From assembly GCA_016866215.1 (NCBI GenBank), contig VGNE01000004.1, forward strand, positions 1 to 64,000: 64,000 nt of DNA, read 5' to 3'. The notes beneath the pieces were generated by a model that saw only the letters and a program-made list of their open reading frames with translations, had not been told where the DNA came from and did no database searches. Of this stretch, positions 2,446 to 20,311 are shown piece by piece (position 1 is the first letter of the stretch; each line of letters begins with the position of its first letter). This DNA is from Chloroflexota bacterium. GTDB taxonomy: Bacteria > Chloroflexota > Anaerolineae > Anaerolineales > Villigracilaceae. Made by a program: the position numbers and the translations under genes.

Positions 2446-2958
2446 ATGGAAAAGTTGACTCAGGACTTAATAGAGGCACCAGGTTTTTCTTCACTTTTTC
2501 AAACGGATGAAAGAGAAAGTGCAGATTCCAACCAGGACATCGAGCTGGAGGTTGTAAATCCGGATTCTTACAACTTAAGTTATACCTGTTTGTTGATCCC
2601 CCGATTTCCGTCCCATCAACTAAAAGGTGACTTGGCAGATTATTTACACCAATGGCTGCCACAAATCTGCATCTCCTACAGCTGGCGTTTGGAATTTATT
2701 GCCATTCAACCAGATTATTTCCAATGGGCAATTTGCGTTCCCCCCTCTACTATCCGAGGTCATTTTATGCAACAAATTCGTTACGATACGTCTGAAATGA
2801 TCTTTTCCAACTTTGGGCATATAAGATCGGAAAATTTATCCAACGATTTTTGGGCGCCCGGTAATCTGGTAGTATTAGGAACACGGCCCCATCCGGAAGA
2901 AATGATCAGTCAATACATTCACTTAATCCGCATTCAACAAGGGCTAAACAAGCTATAA
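2446..2958 (+). CDS. IS200-type TnpA-like protein with HUH motif lost (probably domesticated)
   Basis: A 170-residue protein whose middle (about 45-165) follows the fold order of the IS200/IS605 Y1 transposase: an opening strand (YTCLLIPRF), a helix (LADYLHQWLPQI), a strand (WRLEFIAIQPD), a segment matching DFWAPGNLVV, and a terminal helix EEMISQYIHLIRIQQG. In active TnpA the third block reads PDHVH and its two His bind metal. Here positions 90-93 read DYFQ, so both His are gone. A Tyr remains at 157 in the helix that normally carries the nucleophile. A roughly 40-residue acidic N-terminal extension is added. No left or right IS ends or TnpB gene are visible. It opens a rightward gene run, 49 bases before the Mrr-like gene. 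DNA binding without strand transfer is the inferred role. Confidence 0.65.
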   Translation: MEKLTQDLIEAPGFSSLFQTDERESADSNQDIELEVVNPDSYNLSYTCLLIPRFPSHQLKGDLADYLHQWLPQICISYSWRLEFIAIQPDYFQWAICVPPSTIRGHFMQQIRYDTSEMIFSNFGHIRSENLSNDFWAPGNLVVLGTRPHPEEMISQYIHLIRIQQGLNKL

Positions 2959-3007
2959 TAATCAGGAACCCCCTAAAGAATGCAATACAACACTCTGGTT
3001 TCTGTAC

Positions 3008-3859
3008 ATGTCAAATATAACCATCCAAAGAGCTGGTGAACTGCTGCGAAGTGTATTTGAAATTCTTTGGGATAAACCCGATGGTTTAACGGCCATGCAG
3101 GTTTTAGCCCTGCTCCCCAAGTTAACCAGCCTAACAGAGTATGAATTAGAACATTCCCCAACACTAAATCTGCGAAAATACGAGAAAATCGTTCGACTCA
3201 CCACTATCCCTCTTGTTCATGCCGGTTGGTTAGTAAAAAATGAAAAGGGACGGTGGTATATTACTGAAGCGGGGTACCGAGCTTGCAATCAATTTGTTAA
3301 TGAACAAGAATTCTATCAAGAAGCCCTTCGTTTGTATAGCGAACACAAACGGATTGAACCTGAAAGCATTATGGCTTTGGAGATTGCCCAGGAATCGGCC
3401 TGGGCACAAATCGAAAAACACCTATTACGCTTGAAAAATACCGAACTTCAAAGCATGTCGGCCGAACTCCTGCGCATGATGGGGTATTTCCCCTCCTGGA
3501 TGGCACCTCCAGAAAAACAGCGAGGCCATATTGATTTGATTGCATTTACTGATCCCCTTGGAGTAAAAGGCCAAAGGATCGTGACTCAAATCATACAGAA
3601 AGGCCAGCCGGTCACGCTGCCAGGACTCAAAGGTTTTCTTTCAATTCTCGGTCCAAAAGACTTTGGCATGATTATTTCGATAAGCGGGTTCACTCATGAT
3701 GCATTGCAGGAATTGAGTTCAGAACTGTTTGGAAAAGTCACCGCTCTTGATGCCAATTCATTTTTTGATCTTTGGAAAAAATACTATGCTGAGTTAAGTC
3801 AGGAGATCCGCCAATTACTGCCTGTCAGGGCCGTGCATTTTTTGTCACACATCGATTAG
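3008..3859 (+). CDS. Mrr-like protein (winged helix plus restriction-endonuclease-like fold), catalytic Lys apparently missing
   Basis: A 283-residue protein. The N-terminal part (about 1-100) looks like the Mrr_N winged helix (GLTAMQVLALLP, then HAGWLVKNEKGRWYITEAGY). The C-terminal part (about 140-275) aligns with the Mrr catalytic domain: LLRMMGY, then GHIDLIAFTDPLG with Asp176, then RIVTQIIQKG, then LKGFLSILGPKDFGMIISISGFT. Mrr endonucleases cut modified DNA using a D...QxK triad. Asp176 and Gln194 are present, but position 196, where Lys is expected, is Ile. The protein may therefore bind rather than cut DNA, or a nearby Lys (198) may substitute. It lies between the TnpA-like gene and the 163-residue gene with short gaps, consistent with one operon. 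Confidence 0.65.
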   Translation: MSNITIQRAGELLRSVFEILWDKPDGLTAMQVLALLPKLTSLTEYELEHSPTLNLRKYEKIVRLTTIPLVHAGWLVKNEKGRWYITEAGYRACNQFVNEQEFYQEALRLYSEHKRIEPESIMALEIAQESAWAQIEKHLLRLKNTELQSMSAELLRMMGYFPSWMAPPEKQRGHIDLIAFTDPLGVKGQRIVTQIIQKGQPVTLPGLKGFLSILGPKDFGMIISISGFTHDALQELSSELFGKVTALDANSFFDLWKKYYAELSQEIRQLLPVRAVHFLSHID

Positions 3860-3871
3860 GGAAGTCATAAA

Positions 3872-4363
3872 ATGAGCAAAAAATTGACCGGCCGGGTAAA
3901 AAATCCGTACAGTAAATCATTCGAGGCTGGAATCGAAAATCTAAGGGATGAAATTCAGCTTGCGCTTCAATGGAACAGACCTAGTATCTTAATCGCAATT
4001 CACAAATCAAAAGCGGGACAAACCAAATCGCAATTAACATTGGAACAACGAATTCTTGATTTCAACAAGAAGGTCGAGCGGATTCGCGCAAACGAAAAAA
4101 ATATTGATTTGATCCGAAAAATAAAGACGACAGCAAATCGGGAGAATATCGTCTTTTTTATCTCAGGCTTTGAAAACACGAATAATAGTTCGAGGGATGA
4201 AGTTTTCAGGCTTTTGAATATGCAGCGTGAATTTTTTATTGAGAATCTAATCCGCGCTGTTTTTTGGCTTACAAAAGCGGAGGCAGAAAAATTGCCTCAT
4301 TCAGCGCCGGATTTTTGGGCCTTTCGACACCGAACAGTGGAATTTGCGCCAACGCGGGATTGA
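3872..4363 (+). CDS. Stand-alone degenerate P-loop-like domain protein
   Basis: A 163-residue protein of unknown function. Its core is clearly the same domain as residues 1-155 of the TPR protein at 10167-12806. Shared blocks are AIEELELAIRWDRPS versus LRDEIQLALQWNRPS, HVFFISGV versus IVFFISGF, RVVFWINP versus RAVFWLTK, and APDFWEYCQRVVEF versus APDFWAFRHRTVEF. The strand-helix pattern suggests a P-loop-type alpha/beta fold in which FFISG sits at the Walker B strand, but no GxxxxGK[ST] is present, so nucleotide binding is doubtful. The gene starts 12 bases after the Mrr-like gene. I see no catalytic residues. An adaptor role pairing with the TPR protein is inference. Confidence 0.6.
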   Translation: MSKKLTGRVKNPYSKSFEAGIENLRDEIQLALQWNRPSILIAIHKSKAGQTKSQLTLEQRILDFNKKVERIRANEKNIDLIRKIKTTANRENIVFFISGFENTNNSSRDEVFRLLNMQREFFIENLIRAVFWLTKAEAEKLPHSAPDFWAFRHRTVEFAPTRD

Positions 4364-4582
4364 AATGATTTCACGGATCAACTGGTATACTACTCCGAAA
4401 GGAAGTATTTCCATGGATCTGAACACAAACTCCATAAAAATATCCGAGCCTTGGAAAAATAATCCTACCAGGCTTTTAAAACGGAAAAAGAATGACAACC
4501 CGTTTTGAAGTTAATATATACAAAATTCGACGTTGCTGTTTCTCTTGAAACCATCAACCATCAATGTATTAATTTAAGAACC

Positions 4583-6718
4583 ATGCAACTTCAATTCGTG
4601 AGTATATTCCTGATCATTCTTGCAATTACCATGGGCGCCATATTATTTGTATTTAAAAAGACTCCCGGCTCGTCAAGTCTGAGTCTGCTCGCATTTCTTA
4701 TTGCCGCCTGGATTAGTGCCTATCACTTATACATGTTTTTGGATATTCCTGATTCATTCCTGGAATTGAGAGCTGTCCATCTTTTCTTCCTTGCCGCTAC
4801 TGCAACTACCTTATTCTACTTCTCGCTCTCTTATACAAATCGAACTCATTGGTTGAATAAATCTACAATTCTATTTTTCCTTATAGAACCGATCGTTATT
4901 CAAATCTTATATTGGACAGAGTCTTCACGAAGAATATTTTTTAACCAAGGAAATGGGCTGGAGGTTGGCGAACAATTTAACCTGTTTTATGTCTTCATCC
5001 TTCTTGCAGGAAGCATCGTGTTGTTTGTAGATACTTTCTTGCACAAGCCTCGCATATATTTCCTGCGTGCTGGCACGATAATACTTGGCGCGCTTTGCCC
5101 TTTGTTCGGCGTCTTGTTTACGATTTTCAACCGACAATTTGAGATCAATTTATTAACATTGGTCGTCTCCTACTGCCTCGCCATCGTAGGGTTTGCCTAT
5201 GGAATATTCAATGGCGCATTAATTGAAACCGCACCCTTGAATCGCGAGATTGTGATTGAAGGTATGGAGGACGGCTGGATGGTTATAGACAATCGTGACA
5301 ATATAATTGATCTAAACTCCTCCGCCGAAAAATTGGTCGGTCTATCGCGTGAAACCAGTTATGGGCAACCGATCACTCGTATCCTGAAAGAATGGCCTAA
5401 AATCTCAAACTCGGCTGAAGGTATTAAGGAAATGGAAATGCGCCGTAGTGTCAAATCGCAAAGTGGCTGGCGTTACTTGAACATTCGAATATCTCAATTA
5501 AGAAACAAACAAGATGAAAAATTCGGGCACTTACTGGTCTGGCGTGACATTACTGGCAGAAAACATGCAGACGAAGCCCACCAAAGAGTTCGGGATGAGT
5601 TGTTTGTGCTTTTAAATTCCATATCCAGCAATGCCAGCCGCTCATTGAATATTGAGGAGTTTTTATCCGAGACGAGTTTTCAAATCCTATATTCCTTTCA
5701 CAGCCAGGCGGTAGCTGTTTTTTTGACCGAGGAAATGAATATCGGAAAACAAACCATTACTCTCAAATCTCATTTTGGGCTGGACCCTAAAAACATACAG
5801 GAATTAAATACGATCGCAAGCGCTGCCAATCTTCAAAAATGGCTGATTCAAAATGTCGAAAATCGGCCTCTGGTAATTGACCATAACAACAAAACGACCT
5901 ATGTTCCAATTAGCATTAAAAACATTGAGGCTGAGTGCGCAATATTAATACCATTAGTCACCTATCCACAACATGAAAATAGCGTTATTGGCTGTTTGTA
6001 TCTCAGTAGAAGGGAAAACATCCCATACAGCCAAGATGAAGTTATTCGCCTGACGACGATCGCGAATCAGATCGCGACATTGATTGACAGCAACCGCAGA
6101 AAACAATTTTCTATCGCCCTTTCTGAAAGACAGCGGTTGTTGCGCGACCTGCACGACTCGGTTAGCCAAAAATTATATGGGCTGGTAGCATTGACAGAAG
6201 CTGCCCAGGCGGGAATCGAGGCAGGATCTGAGATTTCTCCATTACAAGTCTTGGCGCGTATAGGAGAAAATGCCCGTCAAGCTGCCAAGGAAATGCGTCT
6301 ATTTCTTCATGAAATGCAGCCGATTGACTTAAAAGATGGTCTTGTGTCCTCCCTGCACAACCGCCTGGCCGCGGTTGAAGGCCGGGCAGACATCAGGGCC
6401 AGGTTACTTTCAGACGAAAAAATAATACTCTCTAAAGAAAAGGAAACTGCCCTGTATTTCATTGCACAGGAAGCGCTAAATAATATTCTAAGACATGCCC
6501 GCGCAAAAAATGTTGTCGTAAGCATCCATCAAACCCGCCAGAAGGTAAAGCTCGAAATTAAAGACGATGGGCAGGGATTTGACATCGTAAAAGCGGACAA
6601 AGGATTGGGATTACGTAATATGAAGGAACGCGCCATGTTAATAAATGGAACATTTAAGATAACATCTACGATCGGTTCTGGAACCCATATCTCAGTGTCT
6701 GTAAGTAAGAAAAGTTAG
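4583..6718 (+). CDS. Membrane histidine kinase (7TM-PAS-GAF-HisKA_3-HATPase)
   Basis: A 711-residue sensor kinase. The first 210 residues are a run of hydrophobic helices of the histidine-kinase N-terminal 7TM type. A PAS domain (about 225-330) begins GMEDGWMVIDNRDNIIDLNS and ends HLLVWRDITGRK. A GAF domain (about 345-505) follows, then HisKA_3 with LLRDLHDSVSQKL (phosphoacceptor His near 524) and an HATPase domain with EALNNILRHA, DDGQGFD and GLGLRNMKERA. This is the NarX/DesK-type kinase that phosphorylates NarL-family regulators. Such a regulator starts 4 bases downstream. A TTG at 4505 would add 26 residues; I prefer the ATG at 4583 because the first membrane helix starts there. The signal sensed is unknown. 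Confidence 0.88.
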   Translation: MQLQFVSIFLIILAITMGAILFVFKKTPGSSSLSLLAFLIAAWISAYHLYMFLDIPDSFLELRAVHLFFLAATATTLFYFSLSYTNRTHWLNKSTILFFLIEPIVIQILYWTESSRRIFFNQGNGLEVGEQFNLFYVFILLAGSIVLFVDTFLHKPRIYFLRAGTIILGALCPLFGVLFTIFNRQFEINLLTLVVSYCLAIVGFAYGIFNGALIETAPLNREIVIEGMEDGWMVIDNRDNIIDLNSSAEKLVGLSRETSYGQPITRILKEWPKISNSAEGIKEMEMRRSVKSQSGWRYLNIRISQLRNKQDEKFGHLLVWRDITGRKHADEAHQRVRDELFVLLNSISSNASRSLNIEEFLSETSFQILYSFHSQAVAVFLTEEMNIGKQTITLKSHFGLDPKNIQELNTIASAANLQKWLIQNVENRPLVIDHNNKTTYVPISIKNIEAECAILIPLVTYPQHENSVIGCLYLSRRENIPYSQDEVIRLTTIANQIATLIDSNRRKQFSIALSERQRLLRDLHDSVSQKLYGLVALTEAAQAGIEAGSEISPLQVLARIGENARQAAKEMRLFLHEMQPIDLKDGLVSSLHNRLAAVEGRADIRARLLSDEKIILSKEKETALYFIAQEALNNILRHARAKNVVVSIHQTRQKVKLEIKDDGQGFDIVKADKGLGLRNMKERAMLINGTFKITSTIGSGTHISVSVSKKS

Positions 6719-6722
6719 GATC

Positions 6723-7373
6723 ATGAAAGCAATTCGCATACTTGTCGCTGAAGATGAAAATGTGGTGCGCGATGGAGTAGTGGCGATTCTCTCCTACCAG
6801 TCTGATATGAAGGTTGTGGCTGAAGCGGGGGACGGCGCTAAAGCTGTCGAACTTGCCCGCCAGCACAAACCCGATGTTGTTCTACTTGACCTGCAAATGC
6901 CCAAGCTAACAGGACTGGAAGCCATACCAAAATTAATGGCCGCATCCCCTAAATCAAATATATTAGTGCTGACTGGTTTTGCAGAAAGCGACGGGGTGTA
7001 TCAATGCATTAAAGCCGGCGCGCGCGGATTCCTGCTAAAAGATGCTACCAGAACGCAGTTATTGCAAGCCATTCGGGATGTAGCCAATGGGCTTGAATCG
7101 ATTCAACCAGCCATTGCCATGCGAGTTATACATGAGATCGATCACCCCGCTGAAATAATGTACACCGCAAGTCCGCTCGCACCCCGGGAACTGGAGACGC
7201 TAAAATTGATCGCACGAGGGATGAGTAATCAGGAAATTGCAAACAGCATGGGCGTACATGAGAGAACCGTGGCCAAATATGTAAGCGGAATTTTGGAAAA
7301 ACTGCACCTTGCCAACCGTACACAAGCGGCCTTGTATGCGATACAAGAGGGTCTAACCGCTCCTAAAAAATAA
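6723..7373 (+). CDS. NarL/FixJ-family response regulator
   Basis: A 216-residue two-domain regulator. The receiver domain has acidic residues E10/D11, the phosphoacceptor D56 in VVLLDLQMP, and Lys near 106 in GFLLKDAT. The LuxR-type helix-turn-helix at about 150-210 contains LAPRELETLKLIARGMSNQE and ERTVAKYVSGILEKL. It lies 4 bases after the kinase gene and is almost certainly its partner. A strong intrinsic terminator follows the stop codon, so kinase and regulator form the end of a transcript. It is closely similar to the regulator at 8097-8762, which suggests a local duplication. Confidence 0.93.
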   Translation: MKAIRILVAEDENVVRDGVVAILSYQSDMKVVAEAGDGAKAVELARQHKPDVVLLDLQMPKLTGLEAIPKLMAASPKSNILVLTGFAESDGVYQCIKAGARGFLLKDATRTQLLQAIRDVANGLESIQPAIAMRVIHEIDHPAEIMYTASPLAPRELETLKLIARGMSNQEIANSMGVHERTVAKYVSGILEKLHLANRTQAALYAIQEGLTAPKK

Positions 7374-7393: not shown

Positions 7394-7424
7394 ACACCCG
7401 CGCTGGATCAGCGCGGGTGTTTTT
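7394..7424 (+). terminator. Rho-independent terminator after kinase/regulator pair
   Basis: A perfect 11-bp stem (7394-7404 with 7410-7420) and a 5-base loop GGATC are followed by TTTTAATTT. It lies 20 bases past the response-regulator stop codon and separates that transcript from the MraZ-like gene. Confidence 0.93.
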
Positions 7425-7551
7425 AATTTAACCTTATCAGTCCAAGGCGTATTCTTCCACATCTTATGCGCAAATATGCATGGTCATTAATGTCCATTTC
7501 CGCGTCCCAAATCATGCAACAAATGGTTCTAAGAGTATCCTGTTTTGTCCA

Positions 7552-7626: not shown

Positions 7627-8064
7627 TTGTTCCTTGGACATTATTCTAGCCAGTTGAAAAAATCGAATCACCTCCTTCTCCCCGCAGAATGGAGAAGCCT
7701 TATTTCAGGCGGCATCTATCTCACGCGAGGGTTTGACCAGAATTTACTAATTCTTAGAGCAGATGCATTTAAGGAGATCTATGCACGAATTTCTTCACTA
7801 AATATCGCAGATCCACTGGCAAGATTGCTTTTGCGAATGTTCCTGGGAACAGCAAGTTTTATACAAATTGCCAAAAACGAGTCTTTTCCCATACCACCCA
7901 GCCTGATCAACTATGCAGATCTTAAGAGCGAGGTAGTGATCATCGGGCAAGGGGAATATCTGGAAGTTTGGTCACCAATCCTGTGGAATCAGCAGGAAAT
8001 TCAAATTCAAGATGCCAAGGCTAACGCACAACGATTCTCATCTCTCACCATAGTCACGGGTTAA
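7627..8064 (+). CDS. MraZ-like (SpoVT-AbrB fold) protein lacking DxxxR DNA-binding motifs
   Basis: A 145-residue protein with MraZ architecture: the opening MFLGHYSSQL, a TRGFDQNLLI strand, a helix through FKEIYARISSLNIADPLARL, the second repeat entered by RMFLGTASFIQI, and the ending VVIIGQGEYLEVWSPILWNQQE. The start is TTG. It is chosen because AGGAGA at 7615-7620 is spaced 6 bases before it and because MraZ proteins begin MFxGxY. MraZ normally binds DNA upstream of the dcw cell-division cluster through a DxxxR motif in each half. Here those sites read K11...H15 and A82...S86, so both motifs are lost. No dcw genes are nearby. The stop lies 32 bases before the start of the second response regulator, so they are probably co-transcribed. 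Function is unknown. Confidence 0.72.
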   Translation: MFLGHYSSQLKKSNHLLLPAEWRSLISGGIYLTRGFDQNLLILRADAFKEIYARISSLNIADPLARLLLRMFLGTASFIQIAKNESFPIPPSLINYADLKSEVVIIGQGEYLEVWSPILWNQQEIQIQDAKANAQRFSSLTIVTG

Positions 8065-8096
8065 AAATAACTATGAAATCAGAAATAGGTACCCAC

Positions 8097-8762
8097 ATGA
8101 AAAAAATCCGCATCCTCGTTGTCGAAGATCAAAATGTTGTCCGTGAAGGAATGGTAGCCATTCTCTCACTCCAAAAAGATATGGAAGTTGTAGGTGAAGC
8201 GGTTAATGGGATTGAAGCCGTACAGCTTGCCATCCGAACAAGACCAGATGTCATTCTTTTGGATATGGTCATGCCCCAACAGGATGGGCTCGCTACCATC
8301 CCAAAGCTAAAAGAAATCTCACCGAATTTTCGCATCCTCGTGCTTTCCAGTTTCGCTGAAAGCCACCGCGTTTACCAGGCGATCAAAACCGGCGCCCTGG
8401 GATATCTGCTAAAAGACACACCACGCGCAGAACTCTTACAAGCCATTCGTGAAGTCGCCAATGGACAGGCCTCCCTTCACCCATCCATCGCAATTAAAGT
8501 AATTCAGGATTTCGACCGCCCGGTGACAAGTCACACAATTAACTTCAATGAGCACCTCACTCGCCGCGAGTTGGAAACCCTGCGTTGGATCGCGCGCGGA
8601 TTGAGCAATCAGGAAATTGCCTGCACGCTGGTCGTCCACGAAAGGACGATTGCCAAATATGTCAGCAGTGTTCTCAATAAACTCCACCTCGCCAACCGCA
8701 CCCAGGCCGCCCTATACGCCATTCGAGAAGGATTAACAACGGTCATGGCACAGGCGCAATAA
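8097..8762 (+). CDS. NarL/FixJ-family response regulator (paralogue of 6723-7373)
   Basis: A 221-residue receiver plus LuxR-type helix-turn-helix protein. Phosphoacceptor D56 is in VILLDMVMP, the switch Lys in GYLLKDTP, and the DNA-binding helices in LTRRELETLRWIARGLSNQE and ERTIAKYVSSVLNKL. The ATG at 8097 aligns with its paralogue and has AGGT upstream; an ATG at 8073 would add eight residues with no ribosome site. It follows the MraZ-like gene closely. No dedicated kinase lies next to it, so it may share the kinase at 4583-6718 or be controlled without phosphorylation. Confidence 0.9.
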   Translation: MKKIRILVVEDQNVVREGMVAILSLQKDMEVVGEAVNGIEAVQLAIRTRPDVILLDMVMPQQDGLATIPKLKEISPNFRILVLSSFAESHRVYQAIKTGALGYLLKDTPRAELLQAIREVANGQASLHPSIAIKVIQDFDRPVTSHTINFNEHLTRRELETLRWIARGLSNQEIACTLVVHERTIAKYVSSVLNKLHLANRTQAALYAIREGLTTVMAQAQ

Positions 8763-8793
8763 TGACTCGCTATGGGTATTCCTGCCTGGGCAT

Positions 8794-8828
8794 AATTGAC
8801 CACCTCATCGCCCATCGCATGGTCAATT
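8794..8828. repeat. Inverted repeat between the second regulator and the ATPase gene
   Basis: Nine-base arms AATTGACCA (8794-8802) and TGGTCAATT (8820-8828) enclose 17 bases and are followed by CTTTT. It lies in the 151-base gap before the ATPase gene. It may be a weak terminator of the regulator transcript or an operator for the downstream genes. The sequence does not decide between these. Confidence 0.5.
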
Positions 8829-8913: not shown

Positions 8914-10170
8914 ATGAAAAGTTTTGAATATCTTAATGCAAAAGATTTTGATAGAGCCTGGTTAAATTTTGAGTTGGACCTGCCCCTTAAACCTGGACCC
9001 AAAGGGCAGTCTAACCCCTTTTATATCAACCGCCCTGGAAATCCGATTAATGAGATGATTGATGCCCTGCTGGCTCCCTTTTACCGGCCTCCCAAGTTCT
9101 TTTTTTCGGGTCATCGTGGATGCGGAAAATCGACAGAGTTACTGCACCTGCTCAGCAACAACGAAATCCAAAAAAAATATTGGCCGATCAATTTCAGCAT
9201 CCGTGAAGAAACCGACATTATTGACCTCGATTTTCGCGATGTTCTGCTTGCAATTGGCAGCCGTCTATTTCGCGAATACCGTAAGCAAGGCGGGGATCTG
9301 CCCGAACAATTACTCAAGGAATTGAACGGTTGGAAGGGAAAAGTGGAAAAGCAAATTTCCACCATCCTGGATGGTCGAGTCTCTGAATACGAACTTGGCG
9401 CATCCATCGATGCGTTCTTTGTCAATGCGGGGCTCAAAATGAAGTTGGAGCCTGCCACGCGAGTGGAGTTGCGGCAGATCGTTGAAACGGACATCACAGG
9501 CTTGATCGCCATCATCAACCACATTGCCGTTGCGATATATAACCAGGAAAAACGCATCCCTTTGATCCTGATCGACGATATGGATAAACCGGATCTCGAT
9601 CGGGCGCGCGCTATTTTCCATGATCGCCGTGAGATCATGATGCAACCCAATTGCGCCATCGTTTACACTGTTTCAAGCGCGCTCTTTTACAGCAAGGAAT
9701 TTGACGCAATCCGTGGCCAGGCGCTCTTCCTTCCGAATATTAACCTGAGATCATCCGCTGATTCGGATCAACATTTAGTGGAAGGTTATCGAATTTTGGA
9801 AAAATTCATCAATGTCAGAATGGACCGTTCCATGATTCACCCATTGGCAATGGAACAGGCGATAACTTACAGCGGCGGTGTCTTCCGTGAACTGGCTCGC
9901 ATCGTACGTACATCCATCGGAAGGGCAAGACGACGAAAAGCGACCCAACTTGAAATAGAGGATGTAGAGTGGGCCGCCATGGAAATCCGAAACGAATACA
10001 GGCGAATTTTGGACAAGGAAGATTTGAAACTGCTGAAAAACGTGAAGGACAGCAAAAAGCTTGAATTTAGTGACCGACTTAGATCGCTCTTGCAAGTGCT
10101 AGCCCTGCTTGAATACAGCGATGAAGAAAACTGGTGCGATGTGCACCCGGTATTAAGGAAGATCGTATGA
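8914..10170 (+). CDS. P-loop (STAND/AAA-type) ATPase
   Basis: A 418-residue P-loop NTPase. Walker A is GHRGCGKST at 66-74 and Walker B is LILIDDMDK at about 217-225. A sensor-like strand, CAIVYTVSSALFYS, follows Walker B. The C-terminal part (from about 290) has a helical section with TYSGGVFRELARIVRTS, which resembles the lid and winged-helix region of ORC/Cdc6- and STAND-like ATPases. No nuclease or protease domain is attached. Its stop codon overlaps the ATG of the TPR gene (ATGA at 10167-10170), which indicates translational coupling and a stoichiometric partnership. It probably acts as the energy-dependent switch of this locus. The target is unknown. Confidence 0.8.
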   Translation: MKSFEYLNAKDFDRAWLNFELDLPLKPGPKGQSNPFYINRPGNPINEMIDALLAPFYRPPKFFFSGHRGCGKSTELLHLLSNNEIQKKYWPINFSIREETDIIDLDFRDVLLAIGSRLFREYRKQGGDLPEQLLKELNGWKGKVEKQISTILDGRVSEYELGASIDAFFVNAGLKMKLEPATRVELRQIVETDITGLIAIINHIAVAIYNQEKRIPLILIDDMDKPDLDRARAIFHDRREIMMQPNCAIVYTVSSALFYSKEFDAIRGQALFLPNINLRSSADSDQHLVEGYRILEKFINVRMDRSMIHPLAMEQAITYSGGVFRELARIVRTSIGRARRRKATQLEIEDVEWAAMEIRNEYRRILDKEDLKLLKNVKDSKKLEFSDRLRSLLQVLALLEYSDEENWCDVHPVLRKIV

Positions 10171-12806: not shown

Positions 12807-12835
12807 CCAGCATTTGTTTAATATTGGAGGTAAAA

Positions 12836-14548
12836 ATGTCTGACTATGAATTTTGGAATGATCTTGGCACTGTCTTTGACGCGATTCTAAATTACCAGAA
12901 AAAGAATGTTGAATTCAATAAACAATTCATCAACCCGTGGATTCGGCTGGGAAATATCTTCGATCGTCAGAATCAAAATAAAGAGGCTGTCAAAGCCTAT
13001 CAGCACGCTACAGAAATAGACCCCGACACCGCACAGAACTGGCTGGATTTGGGTGACGCTCAATTCAAGAATGATGCCTATCTTGAAGCAATCAGTTCGT
13101 ACGAAAAAGCGATCAGTTTGGACCCGAGCGCTGGCTGGCCGCTTGGCAACCTGGCCCTCACTCTGGTCACTCTGGGCAGGTTGGAAGAAGCCATTCCACT
13201 GTACACCGCAAGTATTGAATTGCTCCCTGAAGACAAGGATAAAGCAGTAATTTGGAATCGGCTTGGAAATGCATATCGTAAACTCGATCAATATGAGGAT
13301 GCATTCATCGCATTCCAAAAGGCCGATGAGCTGGATGCCAAGAACACAGGTTTCAGCGATGACTTGGATGAAAATGTAGATGAATACGAATACAAAGATG
13401 AAACTGGAGATGAGGACCCAGCCGGTGAATCTGTAAGTACTGCTAAAGGGATTCTTGAACAAATAGCCGCGGCACAACCGTTGGAAACGAAAAAGACGCC
13501 TGCTCAGGTTGCTGAAGCAGCTGTGCAAAAAGTACTGGCGGATGAAGTCAAAGTTGAGGCGGCTGCTATTCAAAACAATGTGGAAAGGAAAAAAGATTCC
13601 ATTACTGACAAGTCTTCATACATTCCGGCCTGGTTGATCATCAATGACAGCGGGCAATTAAGAGAAGAGATCGTCAGCGCAGGAAAGGCACACACGATCA
13701 GCGAAGACGAAGGCGCTGATGGCGGCCCGCTCAAGCAAGAGATTCAAATGCGCGCGGATCTGCCGGTTGCGTCTGATAAAAAAAATTCGGATGTAAGGCA
13801 GGAAGTCACATTTAGCGAATTGCCGGTGACGATGGATCATGTCGAAACATTCTCTGCCCCCGTCCGTGCCCAAATGAGCGAAGAAATTGCTGATGTACAA
13901 AAGCTTCAGAATGAAGCGTATTTGAATGCGGAAGAAATATTCGCTCGGGATGAATCAGACCCTTGGACAGGTGAAGATCAATCCATCCTTGACGATGAAG
14001 GAGATTCCAGCGAACTTGCCTACCAAGAATACTTAAAGGATGTGATTGAGCCTTCAACTATTTTGTCTGATCACACGTATGAGGTCCATGGTGATTTACC
14101 GCAAACCAAATTAAGCGCCAGCGGGGAAGTGCGTATTGCCATGGATACAACAAACGCACATGTGTGGAATGAATTGGGTAATGTCTACTTAAATTCCGGC
14201 GCATATGATGATGCAATTGCAGCCTTCAGCAAGGCCATTGAACTGGACCGGCACTTTGCCTGGCCGTATAGCAACCTTGCTTTGGCGTATGTGCAAAAAG
14301 ACCGTATCACGGAAGCGATTTTGTTCTATCAACGCGGGATAGAGTTGTTCACTTCGGACAAGGACAAAGCCGTGACTTGGAACCGCCTGGGAAACGTGTA
14401 TCGCCGAATGAATGATTATGATCATGCTATGGCAGCCTATCAAACTGCAGACGAACTTGACCCCGAAAACACTACACGGTCCCTTCGTTCAAGTTTCGGT
14501 TTGTTGGGAAATATGTTCGCTCAACAAAAACCTCCCGTCATTGCATAG
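12836..14548 (+). CDS. TPR protein with long acidic central linker
   Basis: A 570-residue protein with TPRs at both ends and a long acidic, low-complexity middle (about 180-430). The N-terminal block includes NWLDLGDAQFKNDAYLEAIS and WNRLGNAYRKLDQYEDA. The C-terminal block includes VWNELGNVYLNSGAYDDAIA and WNRLGNVYRRMNDYDHAM. These blocks copy the roughly 100-residue module of the preceding gene, and the tail SSFGLLGNMF matches its C-terminal motif. The ATG at 12836 is preceded by GGAGGT at 12827-12831, so an in-frame TTG at 12824 is rejected. It starts 29 bases after the preceding TPR gene. No enzymatic motif is visible. Confidence 0.85.
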   Translation: MSDYEFWNDLGTVFDAILNYQKKNVEFNKQFINPWIRLGNIFDRQNQNKEAVKAYQHATEIDPDTAQNWLDLGDAQFKNDAYLEAISSYEKAISLDPSAGWPLGNLALTLVTLGRLEEAIPLYTASIELLPEDKDKAVIWNRLGNAYRKLDQYEDAFIAFQKADELDAKNTGFSDDLDENVDEYEYKDETGDEDPAGESVSTAKGILEQIAAAQPLETKKTPAQVAEAAVQKVLADEVKVEAAAIQNNVERKKDSITDKSSYIPAWLIINDSGQLREEIVSAGKAHTISEDEGADGGPLKQEIQMRADLPVASDKKNSDVRQEVTFSELPVTMDHVETFSAPVRAQMSEEIADVQKLQNEAYLNAEEIFARDESDPWTGEDQSILDDEGDSSELAYQEYLKDVIEPSTILSDHTYEVHGDLPQTKLSASGEVRIAMDTTNAHVWNELGNVYLNSGAYDDAIAAFSKAIELDRHFAWPYSNLALAYVQKDRITEAILFYQRGIELFTSDKDKAVTWNRLGNVYRRMNDYDHAMAAYQTADELDPENTTRSLRSSFGLLGNMFAQQKPPVIA

Positions 14549-14560: not shown

Positions 14561-16075
14561 ATGAACAACCATGAGTTTTGGAACGAGCTTGGCAATTTAT
14601 ATTTCATGCAGGGAGCATACGAACCTGCGATCCATGCCTATTTACGCTCCATCGAATTGGAGATCAAGTTTGGCAGGTCATATAGCAACCTGGCCATGGC
14701 ATTTGTTCAAATTGGCAAATACAGTGAAGCCATTAAGTTATACCGCCGCAGCATTGCCTTATTGCCTGACGAAAAAGAGCAAGCCATCACCTGGAACAGA
14801 CTCGGAATCCTCTACCGCCAGGTAAAGGATTACAACAGCGCGCTGGAAGCATATCAGCAAGCTGACATTCTGGATCCACAGCAGGAAAGCGATCGTCTCT
14901 CCGAAACAGGGCGTGGAAGTAAAATGCCTCTGACCGTTTCCAAACCTGATATTGATATTGAATCACTCCTATCGGCGGATCAAGATTCGGACGATTCTGA
15001 AAAGATGGATCTTATTGAAATCAATGCAGAGTTGGAAATCGCAGAAGAGCAATCCAATAAATCCTGGTTTGACAGCAAGTTTTTACCATCCGATCCTGAA
15101 GAGCAACTCCTGGTGGAAACCCTTCACGAAACCATGGCAGGTATTCACAGCGAATGGAAACCAGCCACGACCGAAGAGACAGCAATTGTGGAAACATCCG
15201 TTCTGGTTAATTGGGACCTTGAAACCGTTGCTCAGGAAGACTTACCACTTATTATTCCCATTGATCTCGAGACAGTTTCGCAAAAAGATTTGGATGATGG
15301 AAATATGGAAACCAATCTCCTTGATGAAAAGGACGGCAGGCAACCCGCCACATTCGAGATTCAGAATGAATGTGAAATTGGGCATAATCAACCTAAATAC
15401 GAGCTTGCGCTCCTCACTGAACCCATTGGCGCCGCCCCATCATCCGAAACTGAATCCGAGTCAACCATAAGTTTACCGGTGTCAGATCCCGTAATCGAAC
15501 AGTCTGAAACAGACCTGAACTCGTTTGAGCTCGATATAGCAAAGCACAAGCAGGCTGCCCTAAGCAATCCCCGAAACTATGCGCTTTGGGAGGTGCTGGG
15601 TGATGCCTACAAATCCGCAGGCCAGTATAAAGATGCTCTTCTAGCTTACCAAAAGGCAATCTCGGTAAATCCCTATAAACCCTCCTCCTTCTACCGATTA
15701 GGGCTGGTCCATGCCATCGAACGAAATGACACAGAAGCGGTCATGGCTTTTCAAAAAGTCCTGGAATTGGTCCCGGATCACGCCCAGGCACATGCCTCAC
15801 TAGCGAGTCAATATTTAAGAATGGGAATGGAAGAACTGGCCCAATCTCATATTGAAAAGGCTTTGAACTCAAATTTGGAAGATGAAACTGATTATAACCG
15901 CGCCTGTCTCGAAGCAATCTGCGGAAACAATGAACGGGCTCTTGAATTACTTGAAATCGCTCTTCAAACCAAACAGGCTTATATTGATTGGGCTGGTAAG
16001 GATCCAGACCTGGATTCCCTGCGTACTGATCATCGTTTTCAAAATCTCCTCTCCGTCTATGCGACAAGCGCATGA
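14561..16075 (+). CDS. TPR protein, third of the set
   Basis: A 504-residue protein. The N-terminal module (about 1-105) has FWNELGNLYFMQGAYEPAIH and WNRLGILYRQVKDYNSALEA, the same three-repeat plan as the two preceding genes. A long acidic linker (about 110-325) follows, rich in Glu, Asp, Ser and Thr. A second TPR group (about 335-470) has YALWEVLGDAYKSAGQYKDA. The end (NRACLEAICGNNERALELLE, then DWAGKDPDLDSLRTDHRFQN) is a TPR terminus often seen in bacterial TPR proteins. A purine-rich AGGAGAGAGGAA precedes the ATG. It lies 12 bases after the previous gene. It is probably cytoplasmic because no signal peptide is seen. Confidence 0.85.
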   Translation: MNNHEFWNELGNLYFMQGAYEPAIHAYLRSIELEIKFGRSYSNLAMAFVQIGKYSEAIKLYRRSIALLPDEKEQAITWNRLGILYRQVKDYNSALEAYQQADILDPQQESDRLSETGRGSKMPLTVSKPDIDIESLLSADQDSDDSEKMDLIEINAELEIAEEQSNKSWFDSKFLPSDPEEQLLVETLHETMAGIHSEWKPATTEETAIVETSVLVNWDLETVAQEDLPLIIPIDLETVSQKDLDDGNMETNLLDEKDGRQPATFEIQNECEIGHNQPKYELALLTEPIGAAPSSETESESTISLPVSDPVIEQSETDLNSFELDIAKHKQAALSNPRNYALWEVLGDAYKSAGQYKDALLAYQKAISVNPYKPSSFYRLGLVHAIERNDTEAVMAFQKVLELVPDHAQAHASLASQYLRMGMEELAQSHIEKALNSNLEDETDYNRACLEAICGNNERALELLEIALQTKQAYIDWAGKDPDLDSLRTDHRFQNLLSVYATSA

Positions 16076-16115: not shown

Positions 16116-16397
16116 ATGGCTAAAGTATGGGAATTATTGGATCAGGCATATTATTTTATTGGAAAAAGCTATTATGCGGATGCCCAAAATATTCTTGACC
16201 AGGTTTTGAGCACAGATCCACAAAATGTGGAAGCATGGGATGCATATATTAGCATTTGCACAACCCAAAGCGATCTCGAAGATTTACGAAATCATATTGA
16301 TAACGTCTGGCAGACACAAGTTCGCGACCAGGATTATCTTCAAGCAAAACAACGTTTTGTCCTTCAGCGGCTGGATCAGAAAATTCATAATTTATAA
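16116..16397 (+). CDS. Small TPR-like protein
   Basis: A 93-residue all-helical protein with one clear TPR-like pair: LLDQAYYFIGKSYYADAQNI, then VLSTDPQNVEAWDAYISICT. It resembles the first 85 residues of the next gene product (same order AHQLIKAKQYENAALVLDAV, DPKNVDAWKSYLQI), but lacks the charged and membrane parts. It sits between the large TPR genes and the membrane genes. ACAGGAG lies upstream of the ATG. It may be a minimal adaptor. The function is not recognisable. Confidence 0.7.
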   Translation: MAKVWELLDQAYYFIGKSYYADAQNILDQVLSTDPQNVEAWDAYISICTTQSDLEDLRNHIDNVWQTQVRDQDYLQAKQRFVLQRLDQKIHNL

Positions 16398-16430: not shown

Positions 16431-17171
16431 ATGCCAGTTTCAACACACTTACTTGAAAGAGCCCATCAACTTATTAAAGCAAAGCAATATGAAAATGCCG
16501 CGCTTGTTCTTGACGCGGTTGTGAGAGTTGACCCTAAAAACGTGGATGCCTGGAAATCCTATTTGCAGATCCAAAGTGATGTCTGCGATCTAAACTGGCT
16601 CAAGGAGCGTATATTAAGAACAAATGAGTTATGCGATGCGGATAAAAAAAATATTCTTGATTATCAGAACTACCTTATTCGGCAATGGACTGAAAAAGAA
16701 GATGAGGATGCGGCAGAAAAAAACGAAAATACCCTCTCATATCCAGATGATGATCACGAACAACAGGAATTTGTAACTCTTGAGCTGGTGGATATTTTTG
16801 ATTATCCAGAACTAGTCGTTGAGAAAACCCGCAAAAGAAAACCGAGAAGAAGGTATACACCCCGGGTTTCTGCCGCCAGTGGCCATGCGATCCTATTGTT
16901 CGCCTTATTATTACTAGGCATCCGACTGCTTGCCTTGCAACATTTATTGGGATACGCTTTATTATTAATATTTGTATATGGTGGGGTACTCTGGCTGGAA
17001 AAATACAGCATCCGGCTGCCAGCGACTTTCATCAATGCCAACCGCACTTATGCTCTTGAACATACCAACAAATTAACCATAGTGGATAAGTCGCAAGGCA
17101 AAATAGAAGAGCAAGAACCAAATTATGAAGAGCTTGATAAAGTGAACATTGATTCGATACCTAGAATTTAA
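16431..17171 (+). CDS. TPR-like protein with C-terminal membrane anchor
   Basis: A 246-residue protein. Residues 1-85 are TPR-like and homologous to the preceding 93-residue protein. Residues 85-145 are acidic, then basic (TRKRKPRRRYTPR). Two hydrophobic helices follow at about 150-190 (ILLFALLLLGIRLLAL and GYALLLIFVYGGVLWL), then an acidic tail. The basic stretch before the helices predicts that the TPR part faces the cytoplasm. It would link the soluble TPR proteins to the membrane where the two SPFH-like proteins reside. This linking role is inferred from topology and gene order. Confidence 0.7.
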   Translation: MPVSTHLLERAHQLIKAKQYENAALVLDAVVRVDPKNVDAWKSYLQIQSDVCDLNWLKERILRTNELCDADKKNILDYQNYLIRQWTEKEDEDAAEKNENTLSYPDDDHEQQEFVTLELVDIFDYPELVVEKTRKRKPRRRYTPRVSAASGHAILLFALLLLGIRLLALQHLLGYALLLIFVYGGVLWLEKYSIRLPATFINANRTYALEHTNKLTIVDKSQGKIEEQEPNYEELDKVNIDSIPRI

Positions 17172-17243: not shown

Positions 17244-18650
17244 ATGAGAAAAACCTTCATTGGGATCGGCTCCTTTCTTCAAACTCCTGCGGGTGTGGTC
17301 GTCATTACAACGATCATCTGGCTTGGCATACTGTGGGGCTTGAATATTCCTTTTAATCCCTATGTCAGTATCGCTATATTTTTCGCCGATATCGGTATCG
17401 CCCTTTTCCTGTTTGACCGTCTAGTATATTTCTTTTCACAGTTCGTGTTGCCTATTCAAAACCCCAAAGACAGGCGGGAGGTCTATTTGAGGGTAAGAAA
17501 CTTCGAATCAGGCGACCGCGGGCCGACCCTCTTTATCAAGAACGGACATGTAATTGAACATGAGGGGGAAACGGGGAAACGTGGTCCTGGCATTCTTGTT
17601 TTGGACACGGCCAGCGCAGCTGTTTTGCGCACGGATACTGAAATCAGCAGTACAGTGGGGCCTGGGATCAAATTCACACTGCCAGATGAATATATTGCCG
17701 GGTGCGTTGACCTTCGGTCACAGTGGCAGTTCATTGGTCCGCTTTCGAGCGGACAGCCATTTATCAATCCTGCACCGAACGCATCATCAAAAGGCAACGA
17801 ATTACAAAGCCACAGTAAACAAACCAGCGGAATGACTCGCGACGGGTTTGAAATCTCCCCGACGATCAGCATCAAATTTAGCATTAAGCGCCCGGTTGAA
17901 GCAATACCAACAGAAAGCGGCGTGACCTCACGATATGGGTTTGATCCAACATCCGTCCGAAATGCAATCACTCGTGAATTCATACGGCTTGGCGCCCCGG
18001 ATAAAAGCAAGTCCCGCATGGAATGGAATAAACTGCCTGCTCATCTGGTGGTCAACCTCTGGCGCGAATATATTCGTAAATTTAAATTTGAAGAATTATT
18101 CACGACCAAAGAGATCAGTGGCTTGCAAACCATTGAAGAAATGATCAATAAGCGCCTTCGCCAAAGCCATGTGGTTGGACTGGACGATTCAGGCCTGCCC
18201 ACCGGCGAACGGCTTGAAAGTCTGGAATACAAACAATTGCAATTAAGAGGTCTGGAGGTCAGGGAGGTGCGAATCCATAACGTGCTTTTTGAACCATCCA
18301 TAGAAGAGCAAACCATCCAACAATGGAGCGCGGAATGGATGAACCTTGCCAGCCAAGAAGCAAGTTATTTGAATGAAAAAGAGGCTTTGATCGAAACCGC
18401 GGCACGCAATGAGGCTGGCAAAAAATTTGCGTTGATCGTTTCCGCGAAATTTGGCGGCAGAAGTACCACGCCGCAATTAAACCCATTCAAGACACTTCAA
18501 CTTTTGATTCAGCCGCTTAAGGATTTCATCCTGACAAAGAGCCATGCTATGAGCGATATGGAAAAAGAACTAAGGAAATTGGATGAGATCTGGAAATGGC
18601 TTTTGGATCAAAGCGCCAAAAGCCAAGTGAAAGACGAAGAGGCTGGGTAA
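17244..18650 (+). CDS. SPFH (band 7)-like membrane protein 1
   Basis: A 468-residue protein. Two hydrophobic segments lie near the N-terminus (about 16-34 and 42-66, around VVVITTIIWLGILWG and YVSIAIFFADIGIALFLF). The following region resembles an SPFH domain: GPGILVLDTASAAVLRTDTE, GPGIKFTLPDEYIAGCVDLR, then MTRDGFEISPTISIKFSIKR. The C-terminal third is helical and charged, as expected for the coiled part of flotillin or stomatin relatives. SPFH proteins oligomerise in membrane microdomains. Sequence similarity is remote, so the family call is moderate. Its stop codon overlaps the start of the next gene (TAATG), implying coupled production of a hetero-oligomer. Confidence 0.65.
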   Translation: MRKTFIGIGSFLQTPAGVVVITTIIWLGILWGLNIPFNPYVSIAIFFADIGIALFLFDRLVYFFSQFVLPIQNPKDRREVYLRVRNFESGDRGPTLFIKNGHVIEHEGETGKRGPGILVLDTASAAVLRTDTEISSTVGPGIKFTLPDEYIAGCVDLRSQWQFIGPLSSGQPFINPAPNASSKGNELQSHSKQTSGMTRDGFEISPTISIKFSIKRPVEAIPTESGVTSRYGFDPTSVRNAITREFIRLGAPDKSKSRMEWNKLPAHLVVNLWREYIRKFKFEELFTTKEISGLQTIEEMINKRLRQSHVVGLDDSGLPTGERLESLEYKQLQLRGLEVREVRIHNVLFEPSIEEQTIQQWSAEWMNLASQEASYLNEKEALIETAARNEAGKKFALIVSAKFGGRSTTPQLNPFKTLQLLIQPLKDFILTKSHAMSDMEKELRKLDEIWKWLLDQSAKSQVKDEEAG

Positions 18651-20311
18651 TGAAAAGGCAGTCTCATCGCGACGAGGTCAAGTCCCTGCTCTTCGGTCTG
18701 ACAGACGCAAATGTTCGATTCAGAAATAGGTGGCGCAATATTGCCCTTCTGGCTGTATGGTTCCTGTTAAGCGGAATTTCCATGATCCTGCATGCTTTTA
18801 CCGTCATCGAACCGGATCATTTCGCAATCGTAATCGGCTTGAGTTTTTTGAAATATATTCCATTGCTGATCGTTGTCTACAGTCTGTCCAGAAGGAAGGC
18901 GGCAAAATACCTTGACGATATTTATGAATTACATAACCAATCTCTCGCATCTGATTTTCTTGAAGACATTGCATTCGGTTCCGGGCGCGAACAGATCACC
19001 ATCAAAGATGGCAGAATTCCCGAAATGTATGAAAGCTCTCCCATCGTCCTGATCGGCGGGCCGGGCAGGGTCCAGGTCAACCTGGATAGTGTGGCTTTGT
19101 CTGAAAAAGTAGATGGCGAACCAAAAGTCATCTACCCGCGCAGTGAACCCTGGAAACTCGGCAGATTCGAACGAATCCGCGAAATTGGTAAATTTGATCA
19201 GATTGGCAAACGCGAATACGCCGTTATTAATCTGCGTGATCAATTTATAAGCGGTCTCTCGCTAAAATCACGCACCAAAGATGGTATACCTTTGGAAGCC
19301 CAGGGGATCAAAGCGATATTCAGCATCCTGCGCAGACAACATTCAGATAACGACCATGCTGAAAACGATGCTTATCTGTTTGATGAACGCGCAGTACAAG
19401 CACTGGTCTATAACCAGGTGATCATCACGCCAGAGCCAGCCAGCCCGTCTGGAATCAACTTTCCGTGGGATACCACCGTTGTGCCGCTCATCATTTCGGA
19501 ATTGGAAAAACTGATCACCTCTCACACATTAAGTGAATTACTTGCCAGTATCGGTCAAAAGGAAGTGGACCAATCCTCGACCAATGAACAAACCATTGCT
19601 CAAATGCGCGAAGAAATGACGGGCGAACAAACCAGTATGAACGAAGGAAATGATACCCGCTCGCCCAATTTTATATCACGCTCCAAGATCACCGCTCAGT
19701 TCTTCAGCAACCCATTCAAAGAGAAGGCGGCCAAACTTGGGGTCGCTCTGGACTGGATAGACATAGGAACCTGGCAACTTCCCTCCAGCCTGATCCTCGA
19801 TAAACATAAAGAAGCATGGAACCAGTCACGCGAAAATGAAAAAAAACGCAATGTCTTGGCGCTTGCAGGGCAACAATTTGAACTGACCGAACTCATCAGG
19901 TTAATTAACCGCGTGGTTATTTCAAATTACGATAAATTGAATGCATCAGATGCTGCCTTCTCTAGGGAAAATGAAATTTCAGACGAGGACGTCTTAAAGG
20001 AACTGGATGATTTGATCCAACAAAGACCCGAGTTTAGAAAACATATCCGCCTGGATGAAGACACAGCAGAATCTAGAAATTTATTATCTTCAAGGCCAAA
20101 ACTCAAGAACCAGGCTGTTCAGCAGGAAATCAACACAAAAGATGCGAGCCTGATTGCGCTGGAAATGTTAAGGGCGTTTAGGATAGAACTGCTCGCAGGA
20201 AAAATGCTGATTGAAAACGAGAGTGATTCATCAGGAAAAAATAATAATGACTTGATAAGAATTGAAAAGGCATTACACGACATATCCCAGCTTATTCTTC
20301 ATTATCAATAA
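18650..20311 (+). CDS. SPFH (band 7)-like membrane protein 2
   Basis: A 553-residue protein from the ATG at 18650 inside TAATG. Two membrane segments lie at about 27-45 and 55-75 (IALLAVWFLLSGISMIL, then a hydrophobic stretch ending VVYSLSRRKA). The SPFH-like part has IVLIGGPGRVQVNLDSVALS, EYAVINLRDQFISGL, and SRTKDGIPLEAQGIKAIFSI. The C-terminal half is long, polar and helical. It is a diverged partner of the preceding gene: both share the order of a glycine turn, the TxDGIxxE strand and a helical tail. It closes the locus; the next gene (psuG) starts 14 bases later but is an ordinary metabolic enzyme. Confidence 0.62.
   Translation: MKRQSHRDEVKSLLFGLTDANVRFRNRWRNIALLAVWFLLSGISMILHAFTVIEPDHFAIVIGLSFLKYIPLLIVVYSLSRRKAAKYLDDIYELHNQSLASDFLEDIAFGSGREQITIKDGRIPEMYESSPIVLIGGPGRVQVNLDSVALSEKVDGEPKVIYPRSEPWKLGRFERIREIGKFDQIGKREYAVINLRDQFISGLSLKSRTKDGIPLEAQGIKAIFSILRRQHSDNDHAENDAYLFDERAVQALVYNQVIITPEPASPSGINFPWDTTVVPLIISELEKLITSHTLSELLASIGQKEVDQSSTNEQTIAQMREEMTGEQTSMNEGNDTRSPNFISRSKITAQFFSNPFKEKAAKLGVALDWIDIGTWQLPSSLILDKHKEAWNQSRENEKKRNVLALAGQQFELTELIRLINRVVISNYDKLNASDAAFSRENEISDEDVLKELDDLIQQRPEFRKHIRLDEDTAESRNLLSSRPKLKNQAVQQEINTKDASLIALEMLRAFRIELLAGKMLIENESDSSGKNNNDLIRIEKALHDISQLILHYQ

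Follow-up and report, generated by a model that had tools for sequence, protein, structure and literature searches.

What kind of system is encoded by an almost uninterrupted run of rightward genes in an Anaerolineales genome, in which relatives of a transposase and of a restriction enzyme stand beside a sensor kinase, response regulators, an ATPase, tetratricopeptide repeat (TPR) proteins and an SPFH-like pair? The run occupies positions 2446-20311 of the window, that is, of the 64,000 nucleotides at positions 1 to 64,000 of contig VGNE01000004.1 (assembly GCA_016866215.1, Chloroflexota bacterium, Villigracilaceae), and had been interpreted from the letters alone as a membrane-anchored sensing complex (hereafter the sequence-only reading). 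The open reading frames (ORFs) that this reading listed are all present, on the plus strand and almost end to end, at the coordinates collected in Table 1, and they have the families it named apart from the SPFH assignment, for which no Band_7 match passes the cut-off. The block proper is shorter than first claimed, covering 2446-16075 from the Y1-like gene to TPR3, and the core of the system is an active ATPase gene followed by a gene joining a degenerate domain, here termed Pd, to TPRs. Our analyses lead us to propose, tentatively, that the block is a split NLR-like machine under two-component control.

The ATPase and its Pd-TPR partner across taxa

In the window, the genes for the ATPase and for its partner TPR1 overlap through ATGA, as had been noted. 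A scan of named genomes with an alignment of the ATPase gave, for the best 80 of 93 confirmed relatives, 78 loci that come mostly from Anaerolineae and otherwise from Methanosarcinales, ANME-1, Methanoperedens, Syntrophoarchaeum and one Brocadiaceae. Methane-cycling archaea share the core pair, as do, more remotely, cyanobacteria. Four of these loci are too short to show a neighbouring gene; of the 74 that leave 400 bp or more for one, 69, archaea included, have a Pd gene directly 3' of the ATPase gene, the exceptions being L054, L083, L091, L092 and L096. Gene maps were made with a simple longest-ORF caller that misses some genes, such as the ATPase in L044, L080, L091, L092, L098, L141 and L150 and MraZ in G008, G011 and G006, where it was recovered by tblastn. 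ATPases that are 66-77% identical were also found on contigs assigned to Gallionella, Gammaproteobacteria, Deltaproteobacteria and Bacteroidia; these contigs are probably mis-binned and were kept in the counts. L050, L062, L064 and L076, contigs of metagenome-assembled genomes labelled as Proteobacteria or Bacteroidia, have Anaerolineae-like copies that probably reflect binning errors. Within the class, the ATPase was found in 86 of 396 genomes at E<=1e-20, and 17 further class loci (L140-L156, the last of which repeats L086) have a Pd gene next to the ATPase in ten cases; none was seen next to it in L140, L141, L143, L147, L151 and L155, and in L150 the Pd gene was seen where the ATPase ORF had gone uncalled. 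Among eight distant partner proteins scanned, four have a Pd-NACHT/nSTAND-TPR-cyclic nucleotide (cNMP)-binding architecture (L142, L145, L146, L152), with cyclase-like ends in three, and two are Pd-TPR proteins (L144, L149). The remaining two are cyanobacterial plasmid WD40 proteins encoded after a distant ATPase (24-27% identity), Pd being weak in that of Nostoc (3e-4) and not seen in that of Acaryochloris. One ANME-1 contig (L112) has two tandem ATPase genes 5' of the Pd gene. Genes that by eye resemble those of 2-oxoacid:ferredoxin oxidoreductase subunits lie near the ATPase/Pd pair in L057, L072, L103, L107, L111 and L116, in both Anaerolineae and archaea, which is possibly coincidence.

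The Walker A pattern is present in all 61 rows of the ATPase alignment, and D221, D222 and D224 are invariant. The structural model (predicted local distance difference test, pLDDT, 89) has as its fold neighbours ORC (Z 16.4, root mean square deviation (rmsd) 3.2, 242 residues aligned), TnsC (16.1, 4.2, 289), NRC4 (15.1, 4.4, 276) and CED-4 (13.9, 4.3, 280); several neighbours align through to the C-terminus, and the C-terminal part matches AAA+ chains that bear a winged helix. The GxP motif of the winged-helix region is a hallmark of STAND proteins, the classes of which were reportedly set out by Leipe in 2004. This motif was not found in the ATPase, where the aligned columns read by eye SGGVFRE with no P, and because the sensor-2 region has GGxFRE instead of GxP the protein would fall outside STAND in the strict sense. 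The earlier label 'STAND-type' is loose, since ORC/Cdc6 and TnsC match the ATPase at least as well as STAND proteins do; from sequence and model we regard the protein as an active-type AAA+ ATPase, ORC/TnsC/STAND-like.

A search within the genome found Pd at 3872-4363 and again at 10185-10628, the N-terminus of TPR1 (33% identity, E 5e-21), which bears out the proposal that a common domain ties the two halves of the locus. In 11 relatives, the gene at the position of 3872 encodes a Pd-TPR protein (433-449 aa) in seven and Pd alone, as in the window, in four. The domain is modelled as a five-stranded alpha/beta fold (pLDDT 92.5, predicted template modelling score 0.86), for which Foldseek listed ten rows at E<=0.001, every one of them an AAA+ protein (the best at 2.9e-4, with a TMq near 0.5). 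VIA aligns the model to NSF with Z 12.7 (rmsd 3.0 over 144 residues) and to Cdc6/Orc1 with Z 12.3 (rmsd 5.2 over 150). Across 102 rows, no Walker A pattern occurs at the right place; a single match, in L081, is in the wrong position and was set aside as chance. Pd is not in Pfam, which gave only stray matches in one or two of these rows, and a search of the Protein Data Bank for sequence relatives of Pd or the ATPase gave no convincing match. With its AAA+ fold and no Walker motifs, Pd is, as modelled, a catalytically dead AAA+ domain.

Conservation of the block

The survey of the genus comprised 57 genomes, that of the window included. The ATPase is found in 17 of them and strong matches to the Mrr-like gene also in 17 (19 at E<=0.001, the weak ones in G028 and G029 not being counted); both occur in 16, the ATPase only in one (G018), the Mrr-like gene only in one (G023, whose contig ends inside the block) and neither in 39 (Fisher p = 4.9e-12). 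The order Y1-Mrr-Pd-histidine kinase-RR1-MraZ-RR2-ATPase-TPR1-TPR2-TPR3 is kept, as far as contigs reach, in the 11 relatives mapped first, except that G018 lacks Mrr, G022 lacks Y1, and G025 and G031 have one added gene between Y1 and Mrr; in G006, the block runs on to a second contig. The same order recurs in G077, G068, G073 and G074, and in G063 a single contig carries ATPase-TPR3 only. The closely related Anaerolineales metagenome-assembled genome L039 has an ATPase that is 92% identical. The search for conserved linkage that the sequence-only reading had called for therefore finds a gene order repeated across same-genus genomes beyond chance, and a linked set stands from the Y1-like gene to TPR3 and, as discussed below, for the small TPR-like genes sT1-sT2, without the SPFH pair. 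Beyond the genus, the 7 kb upstream of the ATPase in 32 loci where it is at least 60% identical hold a histidine kinase in 28, a response regulator in 29, MraZ in 28 (three of the four absences are caller errors), an upstream Pd gene in 29, Y1 in 13 and Mrr in 14. A protein of mostly about 440 aa with hydrophobic stretches recurs near the block (L094:2146-3447, L061, L063, L070, L074, L090-L092, G025, G031); the single member run against Pfam matched nothing there. The block of G006 is preceded by another Y1-like gene and an additional LuxR-type regulator (L030, about 1686-4179).

A palindrome common to several units

The kinase has intact H, N and G boxes (RDLHDSV, NILRH, DDGQG, DKGLG) and the regulator receiver matches Response_reg at 1.9e-27; judged by sequence, 4505-7373 encodes a two-component system. 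MraZ proteins carry two DxxxR DNA-binding motifs. Both are absent from the MraZ-like protein of the window, as had been claimed, and both are kept (DDKGR, DKIGR) in a canonical paralogue on another contig of the same genome (G000:C6); against TIGR00242 the MraZ-like protein scores 91.8 bits, the cut-off being 98.35.

In 12 of 12 genomes, an 18-bp palindrome close to ATGGTCATTnnTGnCCAT lies 128-152 bp 5' of the point where the MraZ-like gene starts, its pattern having been written after the alignment had been seen. The fetched DNA was then scanned with a site matrix for which only the MraZ-upstream sites had served as training set. Eight genomes have an RR2-ATPase gap of about 100 bp or more, and in each of them the site ranked first or second falls in that gap; the other four gaps, of 21-66 bp, have no site. 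Between 400 bp upstream of and 60 bp inside the MraZ-like gene, sites scoring at least 15 were found at 27 of the 43 named loci in which such a gene had been called (21 of 37 outside the six training genomes), including a perfect palindrome in L075 and sites in L077 and L079, where the kinase and regulator genes point away. In 17 archaeal loci and one of Brocadiaceae (L099-L116), the best site scores 12.9. Upstream of sT1, scanned in 12 of the 13 sT1 genomes (G077 was left out), a weaker site of at least 12.8 is present in six, a score reached by 0-3 of 300 shuffles, and these include the two genomes with an unlinked operon, G018 and G021; another five have sites of 6.4-9.4 (5-18 of 300 shuffles). 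When the pattern was searched in the own genome with at most one mismatch, 17 strand-matches at 15 places were obtained, 7481 and 8787 among them, as compared with five for a reversed control. The third-best match in the window, at 25942-25959 (16.5), is at chance level by shuffles. By eye, a hairpin with a T run follows RR1 in 11 of 12 genomes. The common palindrome suggests one regulon for the MraZ, ATPase and sT1 units, and its sharing between the MraZ-RR2 and ATPase units makes plausible the earlier proposal of control by the two-component pair.

Possible function

Taken as a whole, the block would be a split NLR-like machine controlled by the two-component pair, with a regulated conflict or self-protection response as its most likely purpose, a reading that we favour while placing it somewhat short of probable. 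'NLR-like' may describe a working mode and does not denote family membership. ATPase and Pd-TPR subunits would form a mixed live/dead AAA+ ring, as in ORC or clamp loaders, its assembly being driven by ATP binding, and the TPR arms would sense or recruit a ligand. The membrane kinase would phosphorylate the NarL regulators, which would bind the palindrome and thereby yield more ring and adaptor protein. The MraZ-like, Y1-like and Mrr-like proteins could serve as DNA-binding regulators or effectors, the Mrr-like one possibly still as a nuclease in some relatives. Residue R152 of Pd, which lies just before the last strand and is arginine in 93 of 102 rows, may from its position be an arginine finger. 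The conflict purpose is put forward because of the patchy distribution, the variable insertion site, the NACHT and WD40 relatives, and the nuclease or muramidase neighbours.

Several results weigh against this reading. At the position of R152, TPR1 of the window itself has C, and the distant Pd proteins of L142, L145, L146 and L153 have K. The ATPase-upstream site of the window scores 18.6, the best of ten single-base shuffles reaching 18.0; 16 of the 43 MraZ-bearing named loci have no site of at least 15 upstream (among them L053, L055, L059, L061, L066, L068-L070, L074 and L090); and no site was found upstream of sT1 in the window, where sT1 follows TPR3 by 40 bp. Histidine kinase, response regulator and MraZ genes were found around none of 16 more distant ATPases tested, so the two-component/MraZ control layer seems to have been added later, in Anaerolineae; L140, outside these 16, has a regulator and a kinase 4-5 kb from its ATPase. 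No effector is certain, since Y1 and Mrr of the window lack catalytic residues, and no relative matched in phage records and viral contigs. In addition, a PADLOC scan of 77 archaeal and 70 divergent or plasmid neighbours gave, among the matches listed (for the archaeal set, 25 of 86 families), a few methyltransferase, SNF2, TnpB-type, Csx1 and DolB matches and no consistent defence-island setting for the divergent pairs, there being no control set.

The same hetero-AAA+ TPR machine might instead act in ordinary two-component stress or development signalling, concerned for example with envelope state or filament behaviour and with no anti-invader role, which is a realistic possibility if not a probable one. 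This would fit the intact 7TM kinase with its two NarL regulators, the purifying selection and the neighbours of the divergent pairs, which are mostly other than defence genes. MraZ ancestry likewise hints at cell-wall or division control, and a GH25 muramidase-SH3 gene, possibly an alternative effector or a cell-wall link, stands directly 5' of the ATPase in five relatives (Pfam was run on two). On the other hand, three features are of a kind typical for genes of conflict systems, namely patchy presence in genus and class, a site with other cargo in relatives, and distant partners that have NACHT/WD40 architectures.

A wider formulation, in which these loci represent an ancient undescribed class of split NLR-like machines that place a dedicated ATPase switch and a sensor-bearing dead Pd protein in a mixed ring, is possible, with doubt prevailing. 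Here the array on Pd would consist of TPRs in Anaerolineae and in archaea of the Methanosarcinales, Methanoperedens and ANME-1, and of WD40 or NACHT-TPR-cyclase parts further off, Anaerolineae would have a two-component/MraZ-like regulon with a conserved palindromic operator, and the kin of the window would have domesticated transposase and nuclease parts. If true, an NLR-like machine could have its nucleotide switch on one protein and its sensing arm on another, the two meeting at a live/dead AAA+ interface. The family spans Chloroflexota and archaea and has a candidate operator, which gives a direct basis for designing reporter and binding assays as well as reconstitution.

Relation to known systems

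The nearest idea in print that we found is an operon of two genes, one for an active STAND NTPase and one for an inactive one (PMC8195603, eLife 2021), together with the iSTAND and ternary systems of PMC7159879 (eLife 2020). The former is described in the available text as mobile and as a predicted toroidal heteromer, that is, as an arrangement of separate switch and sensor predicted for another conflict system, for which that text holds no experimental demonstration. The likeness lies in adjacent genes with one live and one eroded STAND/AAA+ module, as the ATPase and Pd-TPR genes also are. In that pair the dead module is mostly fused to GT4 or HEPN effectors, whereas the present locus has TPR and, distantly, NACHT-TPR or WD40, with neither GT4 nor HEPN among the matches listed for the partner proteins scanned; it also has the additional two-component/MraZ/palindrome layer, and the two are likened here by architecture. 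PMC7159879 describes VMAP MoxR-vWA ternary systems with an inactive STAND third component and reports VMAP systems in chloroflexi and multicellular forms; unlike these, the block has no MoxR or vWA domain among the genes scanned. A literature search, with subscription papers outside its coverage, gave no title or abstract describing the present locus.

With NLR/STAND receptors (CED-4, NRC4, bacterial NACHT proteins) the system shares an AAA+ switch, which may be of the same structural branch, and repeat arrays, but its ATPase and repeats are on separate polypeptides and GxP is absent. It resembles ORC/Cdc6 and clamp loaders, which are mixed live/dead AAA+ rings, in having ORC/Cdc6 among the best fold neighbours, and differs from them in that no replication link was seen and that the dead subunit carries TPRs. 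With respect to MraZ, Mrr and the IS200/IS605 TnpA, the window proteins match the profiles and have lost the defining residues.

The right-hand boundary

The sequence-only reading had included the SPFH pair (SP1-SP2) in a single complex as its membrane anchor. Contiguity in the window and several relatives agrees with this, and the sT1-sT2 operon precedes SP1-SP2 even in G018, although the ATPase is there on another contig. However, SP2 is present in 54 of 57 same-genus genomes irrespective of the ATPase (p 1.0), and in G031, G006 and G017 a PHP gene adjoins SP1-SP2-PsiG with the block absent from that site (the block sits elsewhere in G031 and G006, and G017 has no ATPase). Moreover, G021 has sT1-sT2 and no SP2, and in five scanned SP loci without sT1 none of the best four palindrome sites falls between PHP and SP1. 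A complex built on the SPFH pair is thus largely refuted and improbable, and the pair was rejected as a part of the system.

Strong matches to sT1, on the other hand, are confined to genomes with the ATPase, 13 of the 17 having one and none of the 40 others (p 9.7e-10). The number is 16 at E<=0.001, from which the weak and partial matches of G029, G061 and G078 were discounted; the ATPase-positive genomes without sT1 are G022, G025, G031 and G074. In G018 and G021, sT1-sT2 lie on a different contig from the ATPase, amid other genes. Because the distribution of sT1 tracks the ATPase and that of SP2 does not, sT1-sT2 are counted in the system and SP1-SP2 are not. This makes the earlier proposal doubtful as regards a membrane anchor formed by SPFH proteins; anchoring via the 7TM kinase or sT2 is possible.

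The block occupies several chromosomal locations among relatives and adjoins PHP in the window, G077, G015, G008 and G007. Since PHP stands either next to SP1-SP2 without the block or next to the block, the latter appears to have been placed beside resident PHP and SP genes. The PHP-SP1 interval (window 1497-2446 / 17244; L120, L122, L123, L124, L128) is variable in content, being empty in some genomes and elsewhere holding other pairs of SPFH or SPFH-like genes, accompanied by TPR genes or a KAP NTPase. In G020 another pair, with Band_7 over the cut-off, is on the PHP side; G021 and G065 have SP1/SP2-like genes there, G065 also a KAP NTPase. Three homologues of SP1 match Band_7 at 1e-4 to 3e-3, under the cut-off like SP1 itself, and neither SP2 nor two homologues match it. 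SP1 and SP2 were also considered as mutual paralogues, which was dropped as their profile comparison gave a match below significance.

Degenerate Y1-like and Mrr-like proteins

The absence of HUH (H-hydrophobic-H) claimed for the TnpA-like protein holds for all rows aligned: the motif is found in 0 of 17, three of which read HxH with another middle residue, and the Tyr column is F in G025, G031 and L094. The claim that the Mrr-like protein lacks its catalytic Lys is correct for the window, where D is kept (HID) and QxK reads QII, and does not extend to all relatives. Of 17 aligned rows, one truncated, six of the 16 readable ones keep both catalytic residues (G006, G007, G015, G021, L056, L087), one keeps K only, five D only (the window included) and four neither; judged from this alignment, catalytic loss is patchy. 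The ratio of nonsynonymous to synonymous substitution (dN/dS) of 0.18 between the window and its closest relative, both with a broken motif, indicates purifying selection. PADLOC, run on 10 window proteins, matched no known defence system, the Mrr-like protein alone matching a candidate family (PDC-S02, 1e-20).

That the locus is a decaying mobile element, with a leftover transposase, a restriction gene and regulators together by chance, would suit the degenerate Y1 and Mrr, the lower GC content (0.38-0.48 across 2-22 kb of the window, mostly 0.46-0.55 beyond) and the several locations in relatives, but is very improbable and, unless the relatives were recently transferred, largely refuted by selection and conservation, namely dN/dS of 0.05-0.31 for 16 genes against the closest relative (one genome pair, dS up to 1.5), an order kept across the genus and beyond, and the conserved palindrome. 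Under the split-machine reading, the locus suggests that enzymes which have lost their activity, here a transposase, a nuclease and an AAA+ protein, have a use and are held under purifying selection.

Features of the locus and its surroundings

Table 1. Features of the locus (window coordinates) and GH25-SH3 genes of related loci
Feature	Position	Strand	Evidence or remark
Y1 (IS200-like TnpA) relative without HUH, accessory part	2446..2958	+	Pfam Y1_Tnp 4e-11; dN/dS 0.26
Mrr-like PD-(D/E)xK protein, QxK broken to QII	3008..3859	+	Mrr_cat 2.5e-8; dN/dS 0.18
Pd domain alone (predicted AAA+ fold without Walker motifs), 163 aa	3872..4363	+	sequence and model
7TM-PAS-GAF histidine kinase	4505..6718	+	HisKA_7TM, PAS, HisKA_3, HATPase; GAF match weak
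RR1, NarL/LuxR-type response regulator	6723..7373	+	Response_reg, GerE
Intrinsic terminator-like hairpin 3' of RR1	7394..7425	+	read by eye
Proposed operator palindrome ATGGTCATTAATGTCCAT, 147 bp 5' of MraZ-like start	7480..7497	.	alignment, matrix
TATAAT	7575		between palindrome and MraZ-like gene
MraZ-like protein without DxxxR	7627..8064	+	Pfam MraZ 1.7e-17
RR2, NarL/LuxR-type response regulator	8073..8762	+	Response_reg, GerE
Second proposed operator CTGGGCATAATTGACCAC 5' of ATPase; half site at 8819	8786..8803	.	matrix
AAA+ ATPase, core	8914..10170	+	Walker A GHRGCGKST, Walker B LILIDDMDK, GGxFRE; Pfam AAA weak only
TPR1, N-terminal Pd and TPRs, core partner	10167..12806	+	Pfam TPR, Pd comparison
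TPR2	12824..14548	+	TPR matches
TPR3, right end of block	14561..16075	+	TPR matches
sT1, small TPR-like protein	16116..16397	+	genome distribution follows ATPase
sT2, TPR-like, homologous to sT1	16431..17171	+	hydrophobic stretch, by eye probably membrane
SP1, resident neighbour outside system	17244..18650	+	Band_7 2e-3, under cut-off
SP2, resident neighbour outside system, no convincing family	18596..20311	+	no Pfam match
GH25-SH3 genes	L061:8832-9986, L063:3-977, L069:8457-9920, L070:8457-9920, L074:8833-9984		

Rfam gave no match in the window. At 21902-22314, two small minus-strand ORFs resemble by eye a HicA/HicB toxin-antitoxin pair.

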